From positions 30,105,172 to 30,169,171 of the forward strand of contig OY720344.1 of assembly GCA_963082975.1 (NCBI GenBank): DNA of 64,000 nt, given 5' to 3'. This DNA comes from Labia minor. Its lineage: Eukaryota; Arthropoda; Insecta; Dermaptera; Spongiphoridae. Positions 6,647 to 60,775 of this stretch are shown here, piece by piece; position 1 is the stretch's first letter; each line of letters begins with the position of its first letter. The notes under the pieces were generated by a model, which searched no databases, had not been told where the DNA came from, and was given only the letters and a program-made list of their open reading frames with translations. A program made the translations under genes and the position numbers.

Positions 6647-9600
6647 AGATGCGCTTCTTCGTTTGAGTGTTGATAGATTAAAGCCTCTTGAAAAGGCTTT
6701 ATGGCCCTCTTCGACTAATAAAACAACACTTTGTTTAACCAAGGGTCAGTCAGAACGAGACTGTCACAATTATATTAAAGTTCTTCTTACGAATGGAAAA
6801 CGAATCTTCACTTGCGGAACCAACGCTTTCTCGCCTCTTTGCTCTTGGAGAGATGTATGAGATTCACACAATTATAATTTTATTATTTTTTAAATAAAAA
6901 AGAAATTAACGTTTGTTTTCCTAAATTCAGGTTGAAAATGTGAATAATGTTGCTGAATGGGTGAATGGTGTAGCCAAATGCCCCTATAGTCCACGAGCAA
7001 ATAGTACTGCGCTCCTTTCACATAATGGCGGTCACTATTTTTCGGGCACTGCCACAGATTTTAGTGGATCTGATCCAGCGATTTTTAGAACTTTGGGTGG
7101 TTCTCCTCCAGGATCCTCTGGATCGTCTTTACCACCCCCACTCCGGACAAATCAATATAATAGCAAGTGGCTTAACGAACCTCAATTTGTGGGTTCTTAT
7201 GAAACAGATACATTTGTATATTTTCTATTTCGAGAAAGTGCAGTTGAATATATTAATTGCGGAAAGGTATTTTTGACTATTATTCTTTTGAAAGGGATAT
7301 ATCATTTTAAATTTGTTAAATTATTTTCAGATAATATATTCTCGTATTGCACGCGTGTGTAAAAATGACAGTGGCGGTGGGCAATTGATGCTCAAAGATA
7401 ATTGGACTACCTTTGTTAAGGCTCGTCTTAATTGCTCACTTCCTGGAGAATATCCATTTTATTTTGACGAAATTCAGGGCATGCATTACATTGCTGAAGA
7501 AGGTTTAGTTTATGCCACATTCACCACTCCATCGTAAGAATATAATTTTTAATTATTTTGGATATTTTTAATATAATTTATTGTAAAAATTCTCACCTTA
7601 AAATAATTTATTCTTTTAATTAGAAATTCGATTCCTGGTTCTGCAATCTGCGCATTTAATGCTACAGCCATTGCCACTGCATTTAATGGCCCATTTAAAC
7701 ATCAAGAAACTCCTGGATCTGCTTGGGAAAGACATAGTACACAACATCGAGCTCATTTTGAGTGTCAACAAACAGCAGCTGGTGGTCAATTACTTGATTC
7801 GAACAAATATCAACTCATGGATCTTGCTGTCCAACCACATACACCGAAACCATTATATTCTTCGAAACTAGAAACTTTCACACATATTACTATTGACGTT
7901 CTAGCAACAAAACTTCATTTGTAAGTTATACTATTTATATACATATATATTAGAATGTGTTGTTTACATTCAATTAAAGAAATTCTCATATTTAAAAAAT
8001 ATAATTTTTTCTTTAAATATATTTACAATTTTTTGTTTTATTCATACACAATTATTTCATTTGTTTAATTCATTTAAAGACACCTAAAAATAATACTATA
8101 GTACTAGTAGTATTAATATAATATTTTTTTATTAGGAAAGTTCATGTGATGTATGTAGCAACTATAGAAGGATATATTAAAAAGATTTCAATCTTACCAC
8201 GGACTCAAGAAACGTGCGTTGTAGAAGTTTGGAAAGCATCACCACCTAACAATGCCGATCCTCATATTTTAGCTCTACGTTATCTTAAAGAAACCGATTC
8301 GGTAATACTTTTATCTCTTTTAAAAATAAATTTAATCTCAAACTTAAAGTATTTTTGTAATTAAGATATTATATGTATATTATACCGATAGAAAATATTT
8401 TAGAAACTACTTAAAATAATTGTTTATTGTAATATTTTAGGTTTACGTTGGATTTGAACATAGTTTAATGCGAGTACCTGCTCAACGATGCTCTCGATTT
8501 AAATCACTTCAGACTTGTTTGAATGCTATGGATCCTTATTGTGGCTGGAATGAACACAAAGAACAATGTACTCCAGCTCCTAATAGAGATCCTTTGGCAG
8601 GTTATTGGGCACAAGGAGTGACGCAATGCCCAGTGCTTACAGCTCCTGGTAAAAATGATCTCTTGATTTGTATATACTATATATTTTATATAATTATTAA
8701 TTAATTATATTATTTCATCATAGTGGATGGTGGCTGGTCTACTTGGTCTGCATGGTTTACCTGTGCAAGTCATTCTTCAAGTAATTCTCCAGATTCTCAA
8801 GATAGTGCTCCGTTAGATTCAAGTACATCCAGTGTAATTGGAGTTTCTTCTTCAACTCCTAGTTCCAATGGGGATCAATGTCTTTGTCGTACCCGACAAT
8901 GCAACAATCCTGAACCGTCAAACGGTGGTTCATCATGTCGAGGGACTAGTGTGTCTGTCACCAATTGCACAGTTCACGGTCAATGGACAGCTTGGTCTGC
9001 GTGGTCTGCTTGTAGTGAAACCTGTGGAATAGCTGTTAAAACACGAACAAGAACTTGTGGAAATCCTGCGCCTGCTCACGGCGGACGAGTCTGTGTTGGA
9101 CAGGATCGTACAGAAATCTATTGTGCATCTAATCCACCATGTCCAGGTATTTAAATAATAATATTTATTATTTAATACAATTTCATTAAAATTAAATTTT
9201 ATATAATCAAAATAAAAAAAATAAATAACTAAAAATTATTTTTATAGAAACGACTAATATACCAAGAGATGGTCAGTGGGGTGCATGGAGTACATGGGAT
9301 GAATGTAGTGTTTCTTGTGGTGGAGGTTTCCGAACTCGACGTCGAAGATGTGATTCGCCTCCACCAAGAGACGGAGGACAAGATTGTACAGGATGTCACC
9401 TGGAATATTCGTCATGTAATCAACATCCATGTCCTGAACAAAAACGCTTCACGGCCTGGACGCCGTGGTTAGCAGTTCAAAATTATTCAAGTCATAATGG
9501 ATGGACAGAAAGACGATATCGATTTACTTGTCGAGCACCTGTTTCTGAACAAGGACAAATTAAAGCATCGTTAGCTAAGGAAGAAGAGAGACAATGTCAA

Positions 9601-12600
9601 GCTAACGGACAATGTCATCGTTCAGGTATATTTAATAATTCATGTTATATTAAAAAATAAAAAAAATAAATATAATTTTTATTGTGTAAACATACTCATT
9701 AAATTGAGAAGAATTATTAAATATTAAATAATAAAAGTATATAGATGTCGATAGTTTAAAAAATATTTCAAATTAAAATTCAAATTTGAAATTATTCCCG
9801 CCTCTAATTTACCTTCTCCTGGATAGAAAGTCCCTCTTAAGTGAGAATATTTACTTAGGAAATCGTAGCGTATTTGTAAGAGCGACATCTTCTGATATAT
9901 AAGTACCAAGTTCAAATCTCACCTACAGGCTGGAAATTTTATTATATGCTTTCTTTCTCTTATAAGAAAGTGTAACGTTTCAGAGCCAATAATAAAAAGT
10001 CTTACTCATAGTACCCTTATTGAGATTTATTCAATTAGGACCTCCAATGTAAGAGACAATTCAAAATAATACATTTTTGCTTTAATTTAAATAAAATCAA
10101 AATAATTTGATTTGATAATTTGATTTTTTAAAATTTCTCCTTAAAAAATTAATTTTTAATAATTAAAAAAGTTTCAATTATTTTATTTAATTTATTAATT
10201 AATTTTAATAGATCGAAGTGATAATGATGATGTCTGGTCCGAATGGTCTCCGTGGTCTCCTTGTTCTGTTGAATGTGGGGGAGGTCAACAATCTCGTGTA
10301 CGTCAGTGTGAAGGAAGAACTGAACAATGTGTGGGCTCTTCGCATATGACTCGTTCATGTAACACACATCGATGTAAAGGTAATTATGTCTAATTCATTT
10401 GCAATTTTCATTTAAAAAAATGATATTAATATATAGTATAAGCTTTGAAGCAATTGTGAACCTTCCTCAAAATGTGATTATTTGTAATAATTAACTATAT
10501 CTTTATGACAAGGAAAACTAATCGATGAAAAACCACGAATAGAATAAAATTGATTGTAAAATATATTTACAAAAAGAAATAAGAATAAATGAATTAGAAT
10601 GGAGAATGAATAATCATTTGTAAGATAAGGAAGCATTGTTTATTGAATTCAACAAAATTTTTGAGTAAAATTTAATTTATACTTCAAATAGGTTTTATTC
10701 AAAATGTTATAAGTTTGATAATACATAAAATACAATTTATATAAGTAAATTTATACGATGATAATTAAAATTTGATAGCTCAGGATAGGGAAGCAAAGAA
10801 TATTCACAAGTTCAGTACCTCCAAAGAGATAGAATAATTTTCTATGGAATGTTATTAAAATATAAGGAATTATAGTCAGATTTAAAATATTTTCAAATTC
10901 CATGAGTAAAGTTTATTTGTCAAATTTTATATAACATTCATTGATTATTTTGATTTTTAGAAATTAAATTATATATTTTCTTTTTTACATTCATAGTAAG
11001 TAATAAAACATGTTTATTTTCAATTCAAACTGAATTAAAATACAAAATCGTTAGGGTGCAAAGTGTTAATATTTAGACATTAATTATAAGCTTTTACCTT
11101 ATGAATTTATTAAAATTTGCACACCAAATAGATCAAGGTTTTATGAGATTATATTATTTATGTTATTTTTATTAAAATTTTAATAAAAGTATACAACTTA
11201 AATTGTAGTTTATCTATCTTAATAATAAAAATATTAGATATGAGAAAATTAATAAGTTACAACTAGAAATGGAAATGCTCCCTGACCTTATTAACACCGG
11301 TCCGTGTTGCTTGAATCAGCTTAATGCCCGTTCTACTGGGAGATAATAATTTAATTGATTTTTGAGATAATCGTATTACATATTGTATTTACTTAAACAA
11401 TATAATTACTTAAATAATTATGTTATGATAAAAAAATATCATAAAATTTGGATCCGAGTTTTTCATCAATTATAAAATTGATTTTCTTTAGAATAAAATA
11501 TTTATTATTTAAGAATTATAAATAAACAATACTTATAATTTAATATTATGATTTCTAGCTGAATGGGGATGTTGGAGTGAATGGTCGGGCTGTTCTGCAA
11601 GCTGTGATCATGGAATTCGTCAACGAACAAGACATTGTCTGAATTTATCAAATAGAGAAAGAATTAGTGGTGGGTGTGAAGGACAGGCTGTTCAAAAGGA
11701 GCCTTGTGAAGGACCCGCTTGTCATTGTAAGAATCATTTTATTTAATAAATTTAATTATTATGATAATATTAAAATTGATCTATAATAAATTGATCTATT
11801 ATAATTTATAGCTCTCCATGGTTGGGAACCATGGACTGAATGGAGCGAATGTGACCATAATGAAGAACAACATAGAAGAAGACATTGTGTAACTTCAAAT
11901 CCCGGTCCTGATCTTTGTAGGGGTGATGATCAACAAACACGAATGTGCACTCCCGATCTTGTTAATGGTATAGATTTTATATTCTTCTATTATAGAAAAT
12001 TGTTTTTTAGTCATTACTAGATTTTCTAAAAGGATAAGCTTTTGTTTAAAATCTTCAGGTTAAAGGAAACCTATATTTGAGTAGTAAAAATTTACTAATA
12101 AATGTTATAAACACTTTAATTTATGGGTAAAGTTGAAACAAAATTAAATAAGTTGACCTGTGGCCAGGTCCGAACCGACCGACGGTTTGAAGTAAATTAA
12201 TTTCCAGCTACAGAAACAATTTAAAATAATTTTTATATATCTACTAATGTAATAAAAAACAGATATGGATATAACATAAATATTTTTAATTTTATTTTAT
12301 TTATAATATATATGTAAGACCTTAAGACCAGGCTGTGACTTCATGAATGGCAGGATGACGTCATATAATTTTAAATTAAGAAAAAAGTTGGGTATACACA
12401 AGAGAATTATAGAAAGGCTAATGCAATCTAGGGCATAATTGAAAAAACTTTTCGATATGATATGATTAAAACTACTAAAAGAAATATTCTTTCTAGATCT
12501 AGCAGCTCTTCGAGAACATCGACCTCAAATGGCTGGAAGTATTACCGTAGCTGTGGTATTAAGTTGTTGTTTGGCAGCATTTTGCATTGGACTTCTTCTT

Positions 12601-14396: not shown

Positions 14397-29304
<14,908 letters not shown>

Positions 29305-31769
29305 TGGATTGGTTTGTTTGAGGAAAATCGTTCCAACAAATACCACCGTTAAGATAATATGAAAATAATATAATTAAATATTTTTTTCAAAGTAAAATAG
29401 TATAGTGCATTCAAGGTAATCTGTAAAAACAAATCAATAATATTATTGTATTATTATTAGGATATAAGAAAGATTATCAGAAATTAGAATGGAAATGAAT
29501 AAACAAACTGCCTAGCAACGAATTTGTTCATAGCCTTTCAAAAATATTGATTAATCTCTAATATTATTTGTAAAATAGGTATTTCTCAATAAATTAAATT
29601 TAATTATAATGGAAAAAGATTAAAGAAGACAATAACTTACAATACACAATGAAATACACGTCAAAAAATTTTTCTTTTTCTCACAGCCTTTTAGCCAAAA
29701 TAGCCAAAATATAAATAAACAAAATTAATAGTGATTGATATGTATTTATAATCTATAAGGTATATAATTGAATAATTAGTTAAATTATAAAATAAATTAT
29801 AATTATTCAATGATTTCATTTTTTTCCTTATTCTTAAATATTTAAACAGCTTATGAGATAATCTTTTTTAATTTTATTTTTAATAAATACTTTTACCATT
29901 AATAGGATATAGATTTTATTTATGTATTTATAATCTATAAAGAATATAATTGTATAATTAATTAAATTATAAAATAAATTATAATTATTCAATGATTTTA
30001 TATTTTTCCTTATTCTTAAAATTTTAAAAAGCTTATAAGATAATCTTTTTTAATTCTATTTTTATTAAATTCTTTTACCATTAATAGGATATAGATTTTA
30101 TCATAAAACAAAGATAACAAATATTTCATTAAAATTAATAAAAAAAAACAGAATTAATTGTAATAGGAAACGCCTAATCCTGATAATTTTTTTTAGATAA
30201 TTAATCGATTTCAATTTATTTTATTTACGTGCAATTTTTTATAATAATTAAAAAATTCCCACTTACTCATTTTATTTTATTGATTTAATAATTATTATAT
30301 TTATATTTTTTTTCAAACTAGTTTTAAAGATAAGGTGGATTCAGATATATAAAATGAAATTTAGTAACACCCACCTCAAAATTTTGTATTATTTTGGATA
30401 AATATATATTTATAACATATTTTTGTAGAATATTTATTTTATCTTTTATACCACACACATAAGTACGTTCTTCCTTTTAGAAAAACGTACATATTTTTGT
30501 ACATATTAATAATTCTTCATTTATACAATTATTATATATTCAAGTATATTATATTAGAGACAATAAATGATAAGTATATCTTAAATCAAAATGATGATTT
30601 ATTATTCATTAAGGCTATAGAATTATTAGATAATTTTTTTAATTGAATAGAAAAATATATATAATTTATATATATAATTTATATATATATATATATCAGA
30701 AAAAATGGATTTTAATACATATAAAGAGTAAGATATCCATCTACATCAAAAGAGAAAAAAAAATTTTACATATAAAATAAAAAGATTGAAAGTAAAGAAA
30801 AGAGATGAAAGTGCAATTGAAAGAAAGAAAGGACTGGTGTGTCTAGTGTCATGAGGTTGGAGTTAAATTAAAATAAATTAAAATAATATTAAAACAAATA
30901 AATTAGATAATTAGATAGATAGATAATTATATAGAAGATAATTAGATTTCATAAGAAAAGCGAATTAACCATAAAGTCGATATATTTTAACTATTAAGAT
31001 CAAGATCTTTTTCTTCGATAATCTCTACATATTTTTCTTGGTTTATTAAACTTTATATATTAAAATCTTAGGGGGATAATTAAAAATTATTTGTACAAAA
31101 GTAGGAACTATTTGAAATTTGTAAATATAGTAACTCACTCAATAAAATAGATAATAGTCGATAGAAATGATAATGATGGCACGTGTCAGTATTTATTTAG
31201 CATTTAGTAATTAATGGTATATAATTAAAAAAATAAGATAATTATATGTAATTCGAAATATAACTATAAAAACTATAAATAAAATAAAGTAACTCGAAGT
31301 TAATAATATATTGTATAATATAGTGATATATTTACTGTTATTTTAAGATAAAAATGATAATTTTGACAAGTACTAGATTATTAATTATTAATCCTTAAAA
31401 AATAAGATAAATTTTTTAATAAATAAAAACTACCAAAAACTATAGATAAATTTAAATATCACCTATTGAATAATATGTTGAATATAAATATTTAAATATT
31501 TGTTATTATTTTGTTAAAAAAATTCCTAATATGGTATGATGTAACACAATTTAAAGAATAATTTTTATCAAATGTGTAATTTTTAATGATTTTCTTTATC
31601 ATAAATGCATTCATTTATTATGAAATACATTTATCCTTTTATATAAAAAATTAATAAATCGTTAATAGATATCCGATATTAACCATCAATTAAAGAGATA
31701 AGTTTTTGATATAAATTCAGAATTGAAATTTTTAATATTATTATACTAAGTAATTATTGAAGGAATAGG
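29305..31769. other. divergent intergenic region
   Basis: About 2.5 kb between the start codons of the SANBR-like gene (-) and the chitin-binding repeat gene (+). Must hold both promoters, but no TATA/initiator pair can be chosen in this AT-rich sequence. It contains a 182-bp tandem duplication (29740-30104) and short GATA and TA tracts. Confidence 0.5.
29740..30104. repeat. two-copy tandem duplication, 182-bp period
   Basis: The string TGTATTTATAATCTATAA starts at 29741 and again at 29923. The following sequence, including TATAATTATTCAATGATTT and ACCATTAATAGGATATAGA, repeats with few differences. No coding content. Confidence 0.85.
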
Positions 31770-34700
31770 ATGATGTCAAGGTATCTGGGTGAGTAAAAAA
31801 TGAATAGTTTGTTAAATATTATAAAAAAAAATAGTAATGTTAAAAGATATTAATTGTTATTATTATATATATTTATAGGTATTTTGTTCATCATCGCTTT
31901 ATTGATATATAACGTAAAGAGTCACAGTAGAAAGCAATCGAGTAATAATGGTTGTATTGGAACATGCCCCTCAAGAGATCCAATGGACACGTCCATATAC
32001 TTACCCAATACAGATTGCTCTAAATTTTGTCAATGTAGTAATGGAGTAGCCATAGTAATGAATTGTCCAAAGGGTTTAGAATTTAATCCCAAATTAAATG
32101 TTTGCGATTGGCCTTATAGCGCAGGATGTTCTGGTAATGGAAACCCTCCTACTTCACCTCCTAAAACTACCAATAGCCCTTCTCATACAACTGATAATCC
32201 AATTACCCCCACGAATAAACCAGTAGATCCACCAAGTAATAATGGCTGTATTGGAACATGTCCCTCAAGAGATCTAATGGACACGTCTATATACTTACCT
32301 AATACAAATTGCTCCAAATTTTGTCAATGTAGCAATGGAGTAGCAATAGTAATGAATTGTTCTAAGGGTTTAGAATTTAATCCCATATTAAATGTTTGCG
32401 ATTGGCCTTATAGGGCAGGATGTTCTGGTAATGGAAACCCTCCTACTTCACCTCCTAAAACTACCAATAGCCCTCCTCATACAACTGATAATCCAATTAC
32501 CCCCACGAATAAACCAGTAGATCCACCAAGTAATAATGGTTGTATTGGAACATGCCCCTCAAGAGATCCAATGGACACGTCTATATACTTACCCAATACA
32601 GATTGCTCTAAATTTTGTCAATGTAGTAATGGAGTAGCCATAGTAATGAATTGTCCAAAGGGTTTAGAATTTAATCCCAAATTAAATGTTTGCGATTGGC
32701 CTTATAGCGCAGGATGTTCTGGTAATGGAAACCCTCCTACTTCACCTCCTAAAACTACCAATAGCCCTCCTCATACAACTGATAATCCAATTACCCCCAC
32801 GAATAAACCAGTAGATCCACCAAGTAATAATGGCTGTATTGGAACATGTCCCTCAAGAGATCCAATGGACACGTCTATATACTTACCTAATACAAATTGC
32901 TCCAAATTTTGTCAATGTAGCAATGGAGTAGCAATAGTAATGAATTGTTCTAAGGGTTTAGAATTTAATTCCAAATTAAATGTTTGCGATTGGCCTTATA
33001 GGGCAGGATGTTCTGGTAATGGAAACCCTCCTACTTCACCTCCTAAAACTACCAATAGCCCTCCTCATACAACTGATAATCCAATTACCCCCACGGATAA
33101 ACCAGTAGATCCACCAAGTAATAATGGTTGTATTGGAACATGCCCCTCAAGAGATCCAATGGACACGTCTATATACTTACCCAATACAGATTGCTCTAAA
33201 TTTTGTCAATGTAGTAATGGAGTAGCCATAGTAATGAATTGTCCAAAGGGTTTAGAATTTAATCCCAAATTAAATGTTTGCGATTGGCCTTATAGCGCAG
33301 GATGTTCTGGTAATGGAAACCCTCCTACTTCACCTCCTAAAACTACCAATAGCCCTCCTCATACAACTGATAATCCAATTACCCCCACGAATAAACCAGT
33401 AGATCCACCAAGTAATAATGGTTGTATTGGAACATGCCCCTCAAGAGATCCAATGGACACGTCCATATACTTACCCAATACAGATTGCTCTAAATTTTGT
33501 CAATGTAGTAATGGAGTAGCCATAGTAATGAATTGTCCAAAGGGTTTAGAATTTAATCCCAAATTAAATGTTTGCGATTGGCCTTATAGCGCAGGATGTT
33601 CTGGTAATGGAAACCCTCCTACTTCACCTCCTAAAACTACCAATAGCCCTCCTCATACAACTGATAATCCAATTACCCCCACGAATAAACCAGTAGATCC
33701 ACCAAGTAATAATGGCTGTATTGGAACATGTCCCTCAAGAGATCCAATGGACACGTCTATATACTTACCTAATACAAATTGCTCCAAATTTTGTCAATGT
33801 AGCAATGGAGTAGCAATAGTAATGAATTGTTCTAAGGGTTTAGAATTTAATCCCATATTAAATGTTTGCGATTGGCCTTATAGGGCAGGATGTTCTGGTA
33901 ATGGAAACCCTCCTACTTCACCTCCTAAAACTACCAATAGCCCTCCTCATACAACTGATAATCCAATTACCCCCACGAATAAACCAGTAGATCCACCAAG
34001 TAATAATGGTTGTATTGGAACATGCCCCTCAAGAGATCCAATGGACACGTCCATATACTTACCCAATACAAATTGCTCCAAATTTTGTCAATGTAGCAAT
34101 GGAGTAGCAATAGTAATGAATTGTTCTAAGGGTTTAGAATTTAATCCCATATTAAATGTTTGCGATTGGCCTTATAGGGCAGGATGTTCTGGTAATGGAA
34201 ACCCTCCTACTTCACCTCCTAAAACTACCAATAGCCCTCCTCATACAACTGATAATCCAATTACCTCCACGAATAAACCAGTAGATCCACCAAGTAATAA
34301 TGGCTGTATTGGAACATGCCCCTCAAGAGATCCAATGGACACGTCCATATACTTACCCAATACAAATTGCTCCAAATTTTGTCAATGTAGCAATGGAGTA
34401 GCAATAGTAATGAATTGTTCTAAGGGTTTAGAATTTAATCCCAAATTAAATGTTTGCGATTGGCCTTATAGGGCAGGATGTTCTGGTAATGGAAACCCTC
34501 CTACTTCACCTCCTAAAACCACCAATAGCCCTCCTCATACAACTGATAATCCAATTACCCCCACGAATAAACCAGTAGATCCACCAAGTAATAATGGTTG
34601 TATTGGAACATGCCCCTCAAGAGATCCAATGGACACGTCCATATACTTACCCAATACAGATTGCTCTAAATTTTGTCAATGTAGTAATGGAGTAGCCATA

Positions 34701-37700
34701 GTAATGAATTGTCCAAAGGGTTTAGAATTTAATCCCAAATTAAATGTTTGCGATTGGCCTTATAGCGCAGGATGTTCTGGTAATGGAAACCCTCCTACTT
34801 CACCTCCTAAAACTACCAATAGCCCTCCTCATACAACTGATAATCCAATTACCCCCACGAATAAACCAGTAGATCTACCAAGTAATAATGGCTGTATTGG
34901 AACATGTCCCTCAAGAGATCCAATGGACACGTCCATATACTTACCCAATACAAATTGCTCCAAATTTTGTCAATGTAGCAATGGAGTAGCAATAGTAATG
35001 AATTGTTCTAAGGGTTTAGAATTTAATCCCATATTAAATGTTTGCGATTGGCCTTATAGGGCAGGATGTTCTGGTAATGGAAACCCTCCTACTTCACCTC
35101 CTAAAACTACCAATAGCCCTCCTCATACAACTGATAATCCAATTACCTCCACGAATAAACCAGTAGATCCACCAAGTAATAATGGCTGTATTGGAACATG
35201 CCCCTCAAGAGATCCAATGGACACGTCCATATACTTACCCAATACAAATTGCTCCAAATTTTGTCAATGTAGCAATGGAGTAGCAATAGTAATGAATTGT
35301 TCTAAGGGTTTAGAATTTAATTCCAAATTAAATGTTTGCGATTGGCCTTATAGGGCAGGATGTTCTGGTAATGGAAACCCTCCTACTTCACCTCCTAAAA
35401 CTACCAATAGCCCTTCTCATACAACTGATAATCCAATTACCTCCACGAATAAACCAGTAGATCCACCAAGTAATAATGGCTGTATTGGAACATGCCCCTC
35501 AAGAGATCCAATGGACACGTCTATATACTTACCCAATACAGATTGCTCCAAATTTTGTCAATGTAGCAATGGAGTAGCAATAGTAATGAATTGTTCTAAG
35601 GGTTTAGAATTTAATCCCAAATTAAATGTTTGCGATTGGCCTTATAGGGCAGGATGTTCTGGTAATGGAAACCCTCCTACTTCACCTCCTAAAACTACCA
35701 ATAGCCCTTCTCATACAACTGATAATCCAATTACCTCCACGAATAAACCTGTAGATCCACCAAGTAATAATGGCTGTATTGGAACATGCCCCTCAAGAGA
35801 TCCAATGGACACGTCTATATACTTACCCAATACAGATTGCTCCAAATTTTGTCAATGTAGCAATGGAGTTGCAAAAGTAATGAATTGTTCTAAGGGTTTA
35901 GAATTTAATCCGAAATTAAATGTTTGCGATTGGCCTCATAAAGCCGGATGTGTTTCACGTAATTATATATAAACATATAATAATTTATAATAAATAATTA
36001 TTAATAATAAAGAATTAATAATATTTTATAATTTTTTTTTATCTTTCAGTCTGTCCTGCACTCAAACAAGATTCCACCTATGGAATTTGGAGTCCAATTG
36101 GATGTAGTACCGGACCCAGTAAAACTGGTACTTCTTGCTATTTTACTTGCAATAAAGGTTATCAACTCGTGGGTTCTCGTGTTACCACTTGTGGTGATTC
36201 CGGTTGGAATGGAATTATACCATATTGTCAAAGTATGTTTCTAATGTTATAAGTTATTATTTTATTTCTTTATTTTATTAATAAAATATTTTATCTATTT
36301 ATAATATATATCAATTTAGGTATAAATGAAATTGGGGATGATATTATAAATCGTCTTAATAAAACTATTTCTAATAAACCATATACTTTAATCTTTCTAA
36401 TGGATGAATCAGGTTCTGTTCATTTAAGTGAGTTTGAATTACAAAAACTATTTGTCGAATCTTTAGTAGCTGCATTTCCGTAAGTTATTATTCATTATCA
36501 ATTTATTTTTAAAACTAATAATAATAAATTACTATAATAAAAACAAATGAATAGGTTAAGTGCTCAACTTTCTGCGGGGGTGATAACATTTGCTTCTGAT
36601 GCTTATGAAGATATTTCACCTAATACAGATGATACATGTACTTTTATTCAAAACATTAAAAACATAAAGTATACCAGTGGTGGAACACATATTGCTAAAG
36701 CATTAGAAGTTGCTTATAAATCAATCAAGGATGTTGATTATCTTAATCGACCAGCACTTATATGTAAGAAAGTATTTATAAACACATTTTTTTCTCATAT
36801 TTTTAACATGATATGATTGAAATTAGAAAAATGATATTGTTAATAAGAAAGAGCATTTGTCTTCCCCCATAAATAAACTCTCTTGAAAACGGTGTCAAGA
36901 GAGAGAGAGAAGGGCGCCGAAACTTTAAAACCCAAATCTTACAATAACAAACAATAACAGTGAAACAGTGGCGTACCTAGGGGGTGGCGGTGGGTGCCGT
37001 CCGCACCGGGCGGCACTTATCTTGGGGCGGCATTTTTTATATTTAGTTATAGTTATAAAAAGCAACTTATTTATTTCATATTTATTTTTTTTCTTTCTTG
37101 AATAATAAATGATTATTATGATTATTATAAGATTACGATTTGATTTATATAAATTATGATTAACTATATGATTTCGAATATTATTCCTCGGTGTATGTAA
37201 ATGCATTTTAGTGTAAATTTTGAATTCTAATTCCAAGAACAGGATAATAATTTTATTTTATTGTATCCATTAAAATTCGTTGAATTCGTAAACGCATCTT
37301 TACGATTTTGTTCGGCAATTTTTCCTAACTAAAATTTTTTGATCTCAGTTTATAAATGTCATTTCTTTTGAAAAGTTTATATGATTACTTTGAAGTGATA
37401 TACCAATATTTTTTTTAAATAATCGATTTTTCTTTTGAAAAGCAGTGCCGGCGGAAGGCGGTCTGCTAGGTTTAAAATTTACTCTGTGTATTATTAATTA
37501 ATATTGATTAAATAACTTAATAATTTATTTATGTGTATTAATTTATAAAAACCACTATTTGATTGACTTATAATAGAAAGGGTGGCAAAATGGAGATCGC
37601 TCCGGGGGGCAAAAGTTCTAGGTACGCCACTGCAGTGAAATGTTTCCTTACAATAATAAAAACTTTCACGGAAACCTAAATATATATAGATAAATAGATA

Positions 37701-39667
37701 TATACTAATATTAATATTGATAATAATAATAAAATTACCTTATATATATATATAATATTCAATAAATATAATATTTCCACGACTATATGAAATCACCGTA
37801 ATGTTTTGATTTGGATATTTATTGAAACCCCTTATTGAGTACTTTAACTATGAAAAAAACAATAAAAATTATTTTTCCCATAAATAAGAGCTATCAGACC
37901 TCAATAACCACCTAATACTTGAATTTCGAACACTGAAAGTTATTCATACACAATTTATATATACTCATATTCAATTTTTACTAGTATAATAAGATTAAAT
38001 ATATAAATATTGTGCTAGTAGAGTTCAGATTATTATTTTCCTAGAATTTAATTATGGTTTCTCCTAAAACGAGTTTTTAAAAATCTTTGTAGAAAATTTA
38101 ATATCTGAACCACCAATCCTCCTTGATAAATTTTTCATGGCATTTTTTATTTAAATTTTATAATAAATTATCGATTTTAGAATTCTCTAATCTTTACTTA
38201 TTTTATTTTTAAAAAGTAAAAAAAATTGCCATTTTTGAAAGTTATATATATTTATTACCGACCGACGATAGTAAGGGAGGTATTGTTTTCACACCAAATT
38301 TCACATGTGGAGATTTTTACATATCTCCACGAATCATGGATTTTCTTAACAGAAAAAGTATTTTTAGCATGATGTCTGTCCGTCTGTCCGTCTGTCCGTC
38401 CGTATAGATGTGTACAGCCTGAACGGCTTAACGGATTTTGATGAAATTTGGTATATTTACTTAATGCATCAGTGGGATGAATTGATCAACTTTTGGTGCA
38501 AATCCGGAAACCGGAAGTGGTAGTATTAGCTATCGACGATAAGAAGGAAAGGGTTATTTTCGCACCAAATTTCACATAAGGAGATTTTTTTACATATCAC
38601 CACGAATGTATTGGTTTTATCCTCGGGAAAAATCATCTTCATTATGTTTTTCTTAATTTAAAATTATATGACGTCACCCAGCCCTTCATGACGTCACAGC
38701 CTCGGGTAACGCCGGCAACGCCGGCTACTTCAGCTATATATTATAAATAAAATAAAATTAAAAATATTTGTTCTATCCATATCTGTTTTTTATTACATTA
38801 ATAGATATATTAAAATTATTTGAAATTGTTTCTGTAGCTGGAAATTAATTTATTTCAAACGTCGGTCGGTTCGGACCTGGCCACAGGTCAACTTATTATA
38901 TATTTGATCAGCATCAGCATGATTGAAATGTGAATAGATGTAAAATACAGTTGATTTACATATACTCGTAAACAGATATGTACAATGGTATCTTATATCT
39001 TCATTGAATTTTTGTTTAATAATTAAAATAATAGGTTACCCTCCATTCCTCACCTCAAAAGAGCTTCTTTATTACATTATAAATAAAAAAGGTAAATATT
39101 AGATCATCATAATCCGAATAACTGTATTTCTTAAAATCTCTCTTTAATCATTATATTTTTCTTATGTTACTCTGTTATTATTATTTCAAACAACTATTCT
39201 CACTCTGCCCAAAAATCTTCGTTCGTATCATAACAGTATAATATAACCAATTGAGAGGACGTTCAAAGATATATTATATTTATCAAAAAATATAAAAATA
39301 AAATTATACAACACTTTACTGACATCAAAAATTTGTACAATAAACTTTTAGTTTTATTAACGGATGGAGTAAGTTTTTCTGATCCTACTCCGGAAGCTGT
39401 AAAAATTAAAAATAATGGAGATATAATTTGGACAATGGGAATTGGTGGATATCACAAAGGACAACTTGAAAATATTGCCTCTAGTGATTTGGATGGAAAT
39501 CCATTATTCTTTGGAATTACAGATTTTAAAGCTTTTGGCGAATTAAGTAAATACCTTCAAAAAAGTAAGTAATATTGTATAGTTTTATAATATAATAAAA
39601 ATAATAATTTATTTTAATTAAATATTTTTTTTTAGAATATATGAATAAAAATAATTTGAATTGTTAA
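31770..39667 (+). CDS. secreted chitin-binding repeat, sushi, VWA protein
   Basis: Seven exons join in phase to 1631 codons plus stop: 31770-31788, 31879-35958, 36050-36232, 36320-36479, 36555-36763, 39352-39564, 39636-39667. Exon 1 encodes only MMSRYLG (last codon split) and completes a signal peptide (GILFIIALLIYNV). Residues 31 to about 1366 are 14 chitin-binding type 2 (peritrophin-A) domains, each with eight cysteines (CIGTC, DCSKFCQC, NVCDWP, AGC) and joined by Pro/Thr-rich linkers. Exon 3 is a sushi/CCP domain (TSCYFTCNKGYQLVG). Exons 4-6 are a VWA domain with intact MIDAS (DESGS, GGTH, LLTDG). Chitin-binding repeats suggest a cuticle, peritrophic or egg-coat matrix protein, or an immune lectin; this is inference. 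Without exon 1, a non-ATG start in the intron would be chosen. The 2.6-kb intron 5 holds a hAT and a family B element. Confidence 0.9.
31950..35958 (+). repeat. 14-copy coding tandem array, 294-bp unit
   Basis: The unit starts at 31950 and recurs every 294 bp exactly (second at 32244, fourteenth at 35772), 98 codons per unit. The last copy lacks the linker. Copies fall into two main types: A (NTDC, NCPKG, YSAGC) and B (NTNC, NCSKG, YRAGC). My reading of the order is A B A B A A B B B A B B, then two hybrid copies. Types also differ at silent sites. The final copy is most divergent (VAKVMN, PHKAGC). Confidence 0.95.
36966..37632. mobile_element. non-autonomous hAT element, 667 bp
   Basis: Perfect 15-bp inverted ends, CAGTGGCGTACCTAG and CTAGGTACGCCACTG, are flanked by the 8-bp duplication CAGTGAAA (36958-36965 and 37633-37640). 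The interior is AT-rich with GC-rich edges and has no transposase. Inserted in intron 5 of the chitin-binding repeat gene. Confidence 0.95.
38256..38895 (+). repeat. repeat family B, full-length copy 2
   Basis: About 640 bp from TACCGACCGACGATAG to GGTCAACTTA. Interior landmarks: CACCAAATTTCACATGTGG, tandem CTGTCCGT units, GATGAAATTTGGTATA, ACCGGAAGTGG and two TGACGTCA-type sites. The right end carries the subterminal palindrome GGACCTGGCCACAGGTC-like sequence next to CGTCGGTCGGT. Copies: 12149-12392, 44810-45457, 49111-49419. No coding capacity. Likely a non-autonomous DNA transposon. Confidence 0.9.

Positions 39668-58103: not shown

Positions 58104-60775
<2,672 letters not shown>

Follow-up and report, generated by a model that had tools for sequence, protein, structure and literature searches.

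Within the window, i.e., the 64-kb stretch of Labia minor DNA analysed here (C1:30105172-30169171, in a 604-Mb genome assembly of 71 contigs), lies a seven-exon gene (31770-39667, plus strand) whose predicted product of 1631 amino acids is probably a secreted, multivalent linker of a chitin matrix. The gene model, built from splice sites and reading frame with the sequence as sole source, entails a signal peptide, called by eye and beginning MMSRYLGILFIIALLIYNVKS, followed by 14 CBM14 domains, one sushi domain, one von Willebrand factor A (VWA) domain and a short tail. These parts are ordinary; the gene is a well-formed, real one that combines known kinds of domains in an apparently new order. 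Its most interesting aspects are the repeated concerted amplification of CBM14 within one family of the same genome and a difference in sequons between two types of unit.

The array is recognized by Pfam CBM_14 (PF01607) in 14 stretches, with an E value of 2.2e-162 and 527.6 bits versus a curated cut-off of 22.1; eight cysteines, of which a CBM14 requires six core ones, are kept in all 14 units and Trp57, Asn49 and Val54 are invariant throughout. The core aligns to tachycitin (PDB 1dqc; E 3.5e-8), the NCPKGL, VCDWP and AGC stretches being conserved between the two, whereas tachycitin, a protein with 10 cysteines, is a single small domain. Two other Pfam matches of the array, CoV_NSP15_M and DUF5451, were rejected as repeat artefacts, no single stretch being above the cut-off, and an NCBIfam search of the units gave no match. 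In the linker of unit 1, Pro, Thr and Ser account for 21 of the 35 residues.

At the C-terminal end Pfam finds a single sushi domain (E 1.4e-6; 29.1 bits versus a cut-off of 20.7) and a single VWA domain (E 1.2e-23). In the PDB, the sushi part is matched best by complement proteins and the VWA part by anthrax toxin receptor 2 and MIC2; NCBIfam yields for this sushi-VWA head two weak VWA matches, both far under their cut-offs. The letters of the metal ion-dependent adhesion site (MIDAS), DxSxS...T...D, are complete, since DESGS, SGGTH and LLTDG align with anthrax toxin receptor 2, and an earlier note on this DNA, which had predicted one sushi and one MIDAS-intact VWA domain, was right on this point. 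At E<=0.01, Pfam detected no laminin G, EGF, pentraxin or serine protease domain in the modelled protein.

The array lies in one exon of 4080 bp (31879-35958), within an open frame of 1372 codons, and each full unit encodes 98 amino acids, namely a CBM14 core and a 35-aa linker. Tandem Repeats Finder returned a period of 294 with 13.6 copies, 97% matches and 0% indels between 31941 and 35951, all 13 start-to-start distances are exactly 294 and copy 14 consists of the 196-nt core without linker; the claim of a 14-unit, 294-bp array devoid of indels is thereby confirmed, and the bounds assigned to it (31950..35958) are essentially correct. The 13 full units have 20 variable sites, 14 of which are in the core (nt 12-180) and six in the linker (nt 228-290), the mean pairwise difference being 3.4% in the former and 1.4% in the latter, which holds ~27 of the unit's 65 synonymous sites. 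Two unit types, as previously proposed, do exist: type A (units 1, 3, 5, 6 and 10) and type B (units 2, 4, 7, 8, 9, 11 and 12) have fixed differences at seven sites in six codons, between nt 73 and nt 180 of the unit; unit 13 is a hybrid and unit 14 is diverged. The clustering of the fixed sites in that interval is only suggestive (P 0.027 for six events). The alternation of the two types, including the two A-B pairs at the start of the array, does not exceed what chance would produce: units 1-12, read as A B A B A A B B B A B B, form 8 runs (P(>=8)=0.35) and an ABAB or BABA start arises in 14% of orders by chance. At none of the lags 1-7 were units more alike than in shuffled orders at P 0.05, lag 5 coming closest (P=0.058). 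Units 1-2 have one difference each from units 6-7, and two and four differences, respectively, from units 3-4; no difference separates unit 3 from unit 5.

The comparison of the units supports a recent homogenisation of the array, whose copies are apparently kept alike by recombination. The proportions of synonymous (pS) and nonsynonymous (pN) differences are 0.0093 and 0.0035 within A, 0.035 and 0.011 within B, 0.100 and 0.022 between A and B, and 0.197 and 0.057 between unit 14 and the other 13, with pN/pS <1 in every group compared; the near-identity at silent sites that had been claimed for the whole array is thus found within types and does not extend to A versus B or to unit 14. On the 59-residue core alone, unit 3 has a pS of 0.17 against unit 7, of 0.20 against unit 14 and of 0.66-0.86 against six related domains, the last range being at or near saturation. 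Codon choice changes along the unit, its 17 prolines being encoded by CCC (4), CCA (6) and CCT (7); because the related domains are far more diverged and codon choice is varied, the silent identity points to shared descent and not to codon bias.

The four-gamete test is failed by 34 of the 105 informative site pairs, with a minimum number of recombination events (Rm) of 4 within the unit. Unit 8 is a mosaic, having A letters at nt 12, 27 and 66 and B letters at every one of the seven fixed sites, which begin at nt 73, and unit 13 has the A letter at nt 73 and B letters at the remaining six fixed sites. Mosaics are thus not restricted to the final copies of the array, where hybrids had been noticed earlier. 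Of the pattern from which unequal crossing-over and gene conversion had been deduced, the recent homogenisation and the signs of recombination between units are upheld, whereas the alternation carries no signal.

Three of the six fixed codons alter the encoded residue (D25N, P43S and S60R), and D25N and P43S give rise to one N-C-S sequon apiece (N25 and N41) in type B; there are thus no sequons in the five A units, two in each of the seven B units and one in units 13 and 14. As most related domains keep Asp25 (four of six, the domain designated arr2 having N and arr2_5p having E) and Pro43 (five of six, with D in L029), the type B state seems to be the derived one in both cases; NCS at the first sequon place also occurs in a second CBM14 array of the same genome. 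Both B sequons adjoin cysteines, and a cysteine at the middle position of a sequon reduces the efficiency of glycosylation; N41 precedes what, from the alignment with tachycitin, we take to be the chitin-binding hairpin. One could imagine a two-state glycan code in which recombination would shuffle A and B cores, each allele thus having its own number and arrangement of glycosylated and more weakly chitin-binding grips in front of an adhesive head, a speculation that is unlikely to prove correct.

What could be the origin of such an array? The unit DNA has 15 matches in the genome, 14 in the array itself and one of 75% at C1:72.11 Mb; the CBM14 core, searched as protein, has 65 at E<=0.001, 14 of them from the window array, and Pfam CBM_14 has at least 134 (150 of 171 candidates scored). 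In relatives at C1:15.867, 72.112 and 64.816 Mb, a low-complexity stretch follows a hydrophobic start, and a single CBM14 that retains the same eight cysteines stands at the end: L019 (6288-8501, minus strand) is Ser-rich with Asp/Glu, 489 of the 737 residues of its open frame being Ser, L029 (5381-7849, plus strand) has 39 PTPTDDPGT repeats, L026 (6913-7647, minus strand) has GGPPRGGGK repeats, and a fourth relative, L022, is His-rich. All four have a phase 1 acceptor inside the hydrophobic start, as does the window gene, the upstream exon with its ATG having been read in one of them only, L026 (C1:15.867). The gene may have arisen inside this family of putatively secreted 8-cysteine CBM14 proteins, a CBM14 unit having multiplied through unequal exchange inside a single exon and then been kept alike by recombination, and the sushi and VWA domains reside on symmetrical phase 1 modules as expected from exon shuffling. 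Indeed, array exon 2, sushi exon 3 and the VWA block of exons 4-6 are all phase 1-1, the classic arrangement of shuffled extracellular modules. A further CBM14 relative, at C1:79171776-79171958, has an internal stop and is possibly a pseudogene.

The second array (C1:72137651-72146049, minus strand, loci L023 and L024) comprises 22 CBM14 exons of 291 nt (18) or 318 nt (4) and 21 introns, each of 90 nt except one of 89; mean identity is 98.3% among the eighteen 291-nt exons and also 98.3% among the twenty 90-nt introns. One more unit is located 4 kb upstream. The Gly-rich linkers bear no resemblance, as judged by eye, to those of the window gene, and after the last exon the transcript would run into a short tail with a stop, without sushi or VWA (splice sites by eye). 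Two members of one family thus seem to have amplified CBM14 independently and by different units, intra-exon repeats in one case and exon-intron cassettes in the other, and a single genome with two strongly homogenised and apparently independent arrays makes the concerted evolution of chitin-binding arrays, and their possible copy-number variation, directly testable.

In the linker reading, 14 domains of the tachycitin/peritrophin-A type would grip chitin with high avidity, spaced by Pro/Thr/Ser-rich linkers that are probably O-glycosylated, while the C-terminal sushi-VWA head would bind a second partner in a metal-dependent manner via its MIDAS; this partner would thereby be tied to a chitin matrix, which may be cuticle, peritrophic matrix, tracheal lining or eggshell. 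Several observations weigh against this picture. AlphaFold models the unit poorly (mean predicted local distance difference test score, pLDDT, 57.7), so that the assignment of the CBM14 fold depends on homology; the counterpart of tachycitin Tyr49, presumably a chitin-binding residue, is Lys in 10 of the 14 units and Ile in the other four; recurrent mutation could mimic some of the four-gamete failures; and a genome search for a second copy of the head at E<=0.001 (13 candidates scored) returned four matches, all from the gene's own exons.

The lack of a second head in that search also suits a reading in which the product is a mucin of the peritrophic matrix or cuticle, with a functional array and with the sushi-VWA end as an incidental, recent fusion of little role; CBM14 arrays are on record for insect peritrophic proteins, such as HpCBP45 with eight domains (PMC6271151), and the related 22-exon gene ends without a head. 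However, an old fusion devoid of function should decay, and the five exons that make up the head here show no damage, retain every MIDAS letter and have good splice sites; this explanation is disfavoured and appears unlikely. The resemblance of the sushi part to complement proteins and the succession of sushi and VWA, which is that of factor B and C2, might by analogy indicate an immune or clotting recognition protein having the array as chitin or glycan sensor and the head as effector dock; but the presence of one sushi instead of three, the lack of a serine protease, the end of the model 15 residues after the VWA and the absence of factor B among the 27 PDB matches listed for the VWA render this possibility very unlikely. 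That copy number or unit order is a product of the assembly is most improbable: near-identical tandem repeats are easily miscounted, a single assembly is at hand and two units are identical, but the copies differ in register at 20 sites with 13 exact spacings, and the frame is unbroken, the flanking exons are in place and 71 contigs cover 604 Mb.

Returning to the linker and its head, Pfam VWA has six matches in the genome, two of which are from the window gene, and Sushi 49, one of which is; for the other VWA and Sushi matches the nearest CBM14 among the matches listed is 3.56 Mb away. Within the sensitivity of a search run exon by exon, no locus other than the window gene was found to join CBM14 to sushi or VWA. 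Another locus (C1:42178428-42192089, L043 and L044) resembles the head in having both VWA (38% identity over 47 aa) and sushi (37% identity over 46 aa; three loci searched), but its VWA stands ahead of five sushi matches and no listed CBM14 match is nearby; by its domains it would be SVEP1-like. SVEP1 is composed of VWA, EGF, many sushi domains and a pentraxin, and membership of the window gene was rejected because it has one sushi before the VWA and neither EGF nor pentraxin; complement factor B, i.e., three sushi domains, VWA and a serine protease, was rejected on the grounds given above for the immune reading. No relative of the head was confirmed in collections of viral contigs and genome contigs, nor one of the unit in the viral collection.

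The combination was not known to the earlier note as a described family, a statement that needs qualifying as far as the trio of domains is concerned. PifCCP of bivalves, a subfamily of the mollusc Pif/BMSP shell-matrix proteins, has VWA, many complement control protein (CCP, or sushi) domains and then CBM14, together with laminin G, a combination that its authors describe as otherwise unreported among the shell-matrix proteins of molluscs and brachiopods (PMC11291548). According to a land-snail study, most VWA matrix proteins of other molluscs have extra domains, e.g., CCP and chitin-binding ones (PMC6368272). The window gene shares with PifCCP the presence of all three domains in one matrix protein, but has 14 CBM14, one sushi and one VWA in a different order and no laminin G match, and was not placed in that group; the likeness is likely convergent. 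The order CBM14-sushi-VWA did not turn up for an arthropod protein in searches of open-licence papers, where absence is a weak argument and the papers listed dealt with molluscs apart from one review of plant lectins; with this order, the chitin, VWA and CCP recipe of bivalve shells would have been used a second time, probably by convergence. The beetle HpCBP45, which binds chitin, resembles the window gene in its tandem CBM14 domains and likely multivalent binding, whereas its abstract mentions no sushi, VWA or near-identical units (PMC6271151).

Table 1. Exons of the CBM14-sushi-VWA gene and units of its array (window positions)
Feature	Positions	Strand	Basis
Exon 1: start codon, beginning of signal peptide	31770..31788	+	Donor gtgagt, phase 1 end; splice sites and frame
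Exon 2, phase 1-1: remaining signal peptide, 14 CBM14, 13 Pro/Thr/Ser-rich linkers	31879..35958	+	Open frame, Pfam
13 full 294-bp units (A,B,A,B,A,A,B,B,B,A,B,B,hybrid)	31941..35762	+	Exact spacing, pairwise identities, variable sites
Unit 14: diverged final core without linker, spliced to sushi exon	35763..35958	+	90-93% identity to other units
Exon 3, phase 1-1: sushi/CCP domain	36050..36232	+	Pfam Sushi E 1.4e-6, splice sites
Exon 4: VWA start, MIDAS DESGS motif	36320..36479	+	Pfam VWA E 1.2e-23, anthrax toxin receptor 2 alignment
Exon 5: VWA middle, MIDAS threonine (SGGTH)	36555..36763	+	Splice-site model, anthrax toxin receptor 2 alignment
Exon 6: VWA end, MIDAS aspartate (LLTDG), after 2588-bp intron	39352..39564	+	Splice-site model, alignment
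Exon 7: short C-terminal tail and stop; least certain exon	39636..39667	+	32 nt, no domain

Rfam and tRNA scans of the window gave no matches. Two AT-rich tandem copies of 182 bp (92% matches) lie at 29739-30101, ~1.7 kb upstream of exon 1. Farther upstream, an open frame at 25200-26882 (plus strand) contains a reverse transcriptase match (PF00078, E 1e-9) and is a retrotransposon relic or copy, for which no relative was confirmed in the viral contig collection; a repeat-element pattern likewise had no match in that collection. A Mos1-type transposase N-terminal domain, HTH_48 (E 5.3e-6), is found at 21804-22139 (plus strand). At 8705-9660 (plus strand), exons of the thrombospondin type 1 kind, together with a SEMA5B-like domain (E 1.8e-23), probably belong to a semaphorin-5 gene, and at the other end of the window an alpha-tubulin-like open frame, recognized by eye, occupies 59606-60775 (plus strand).

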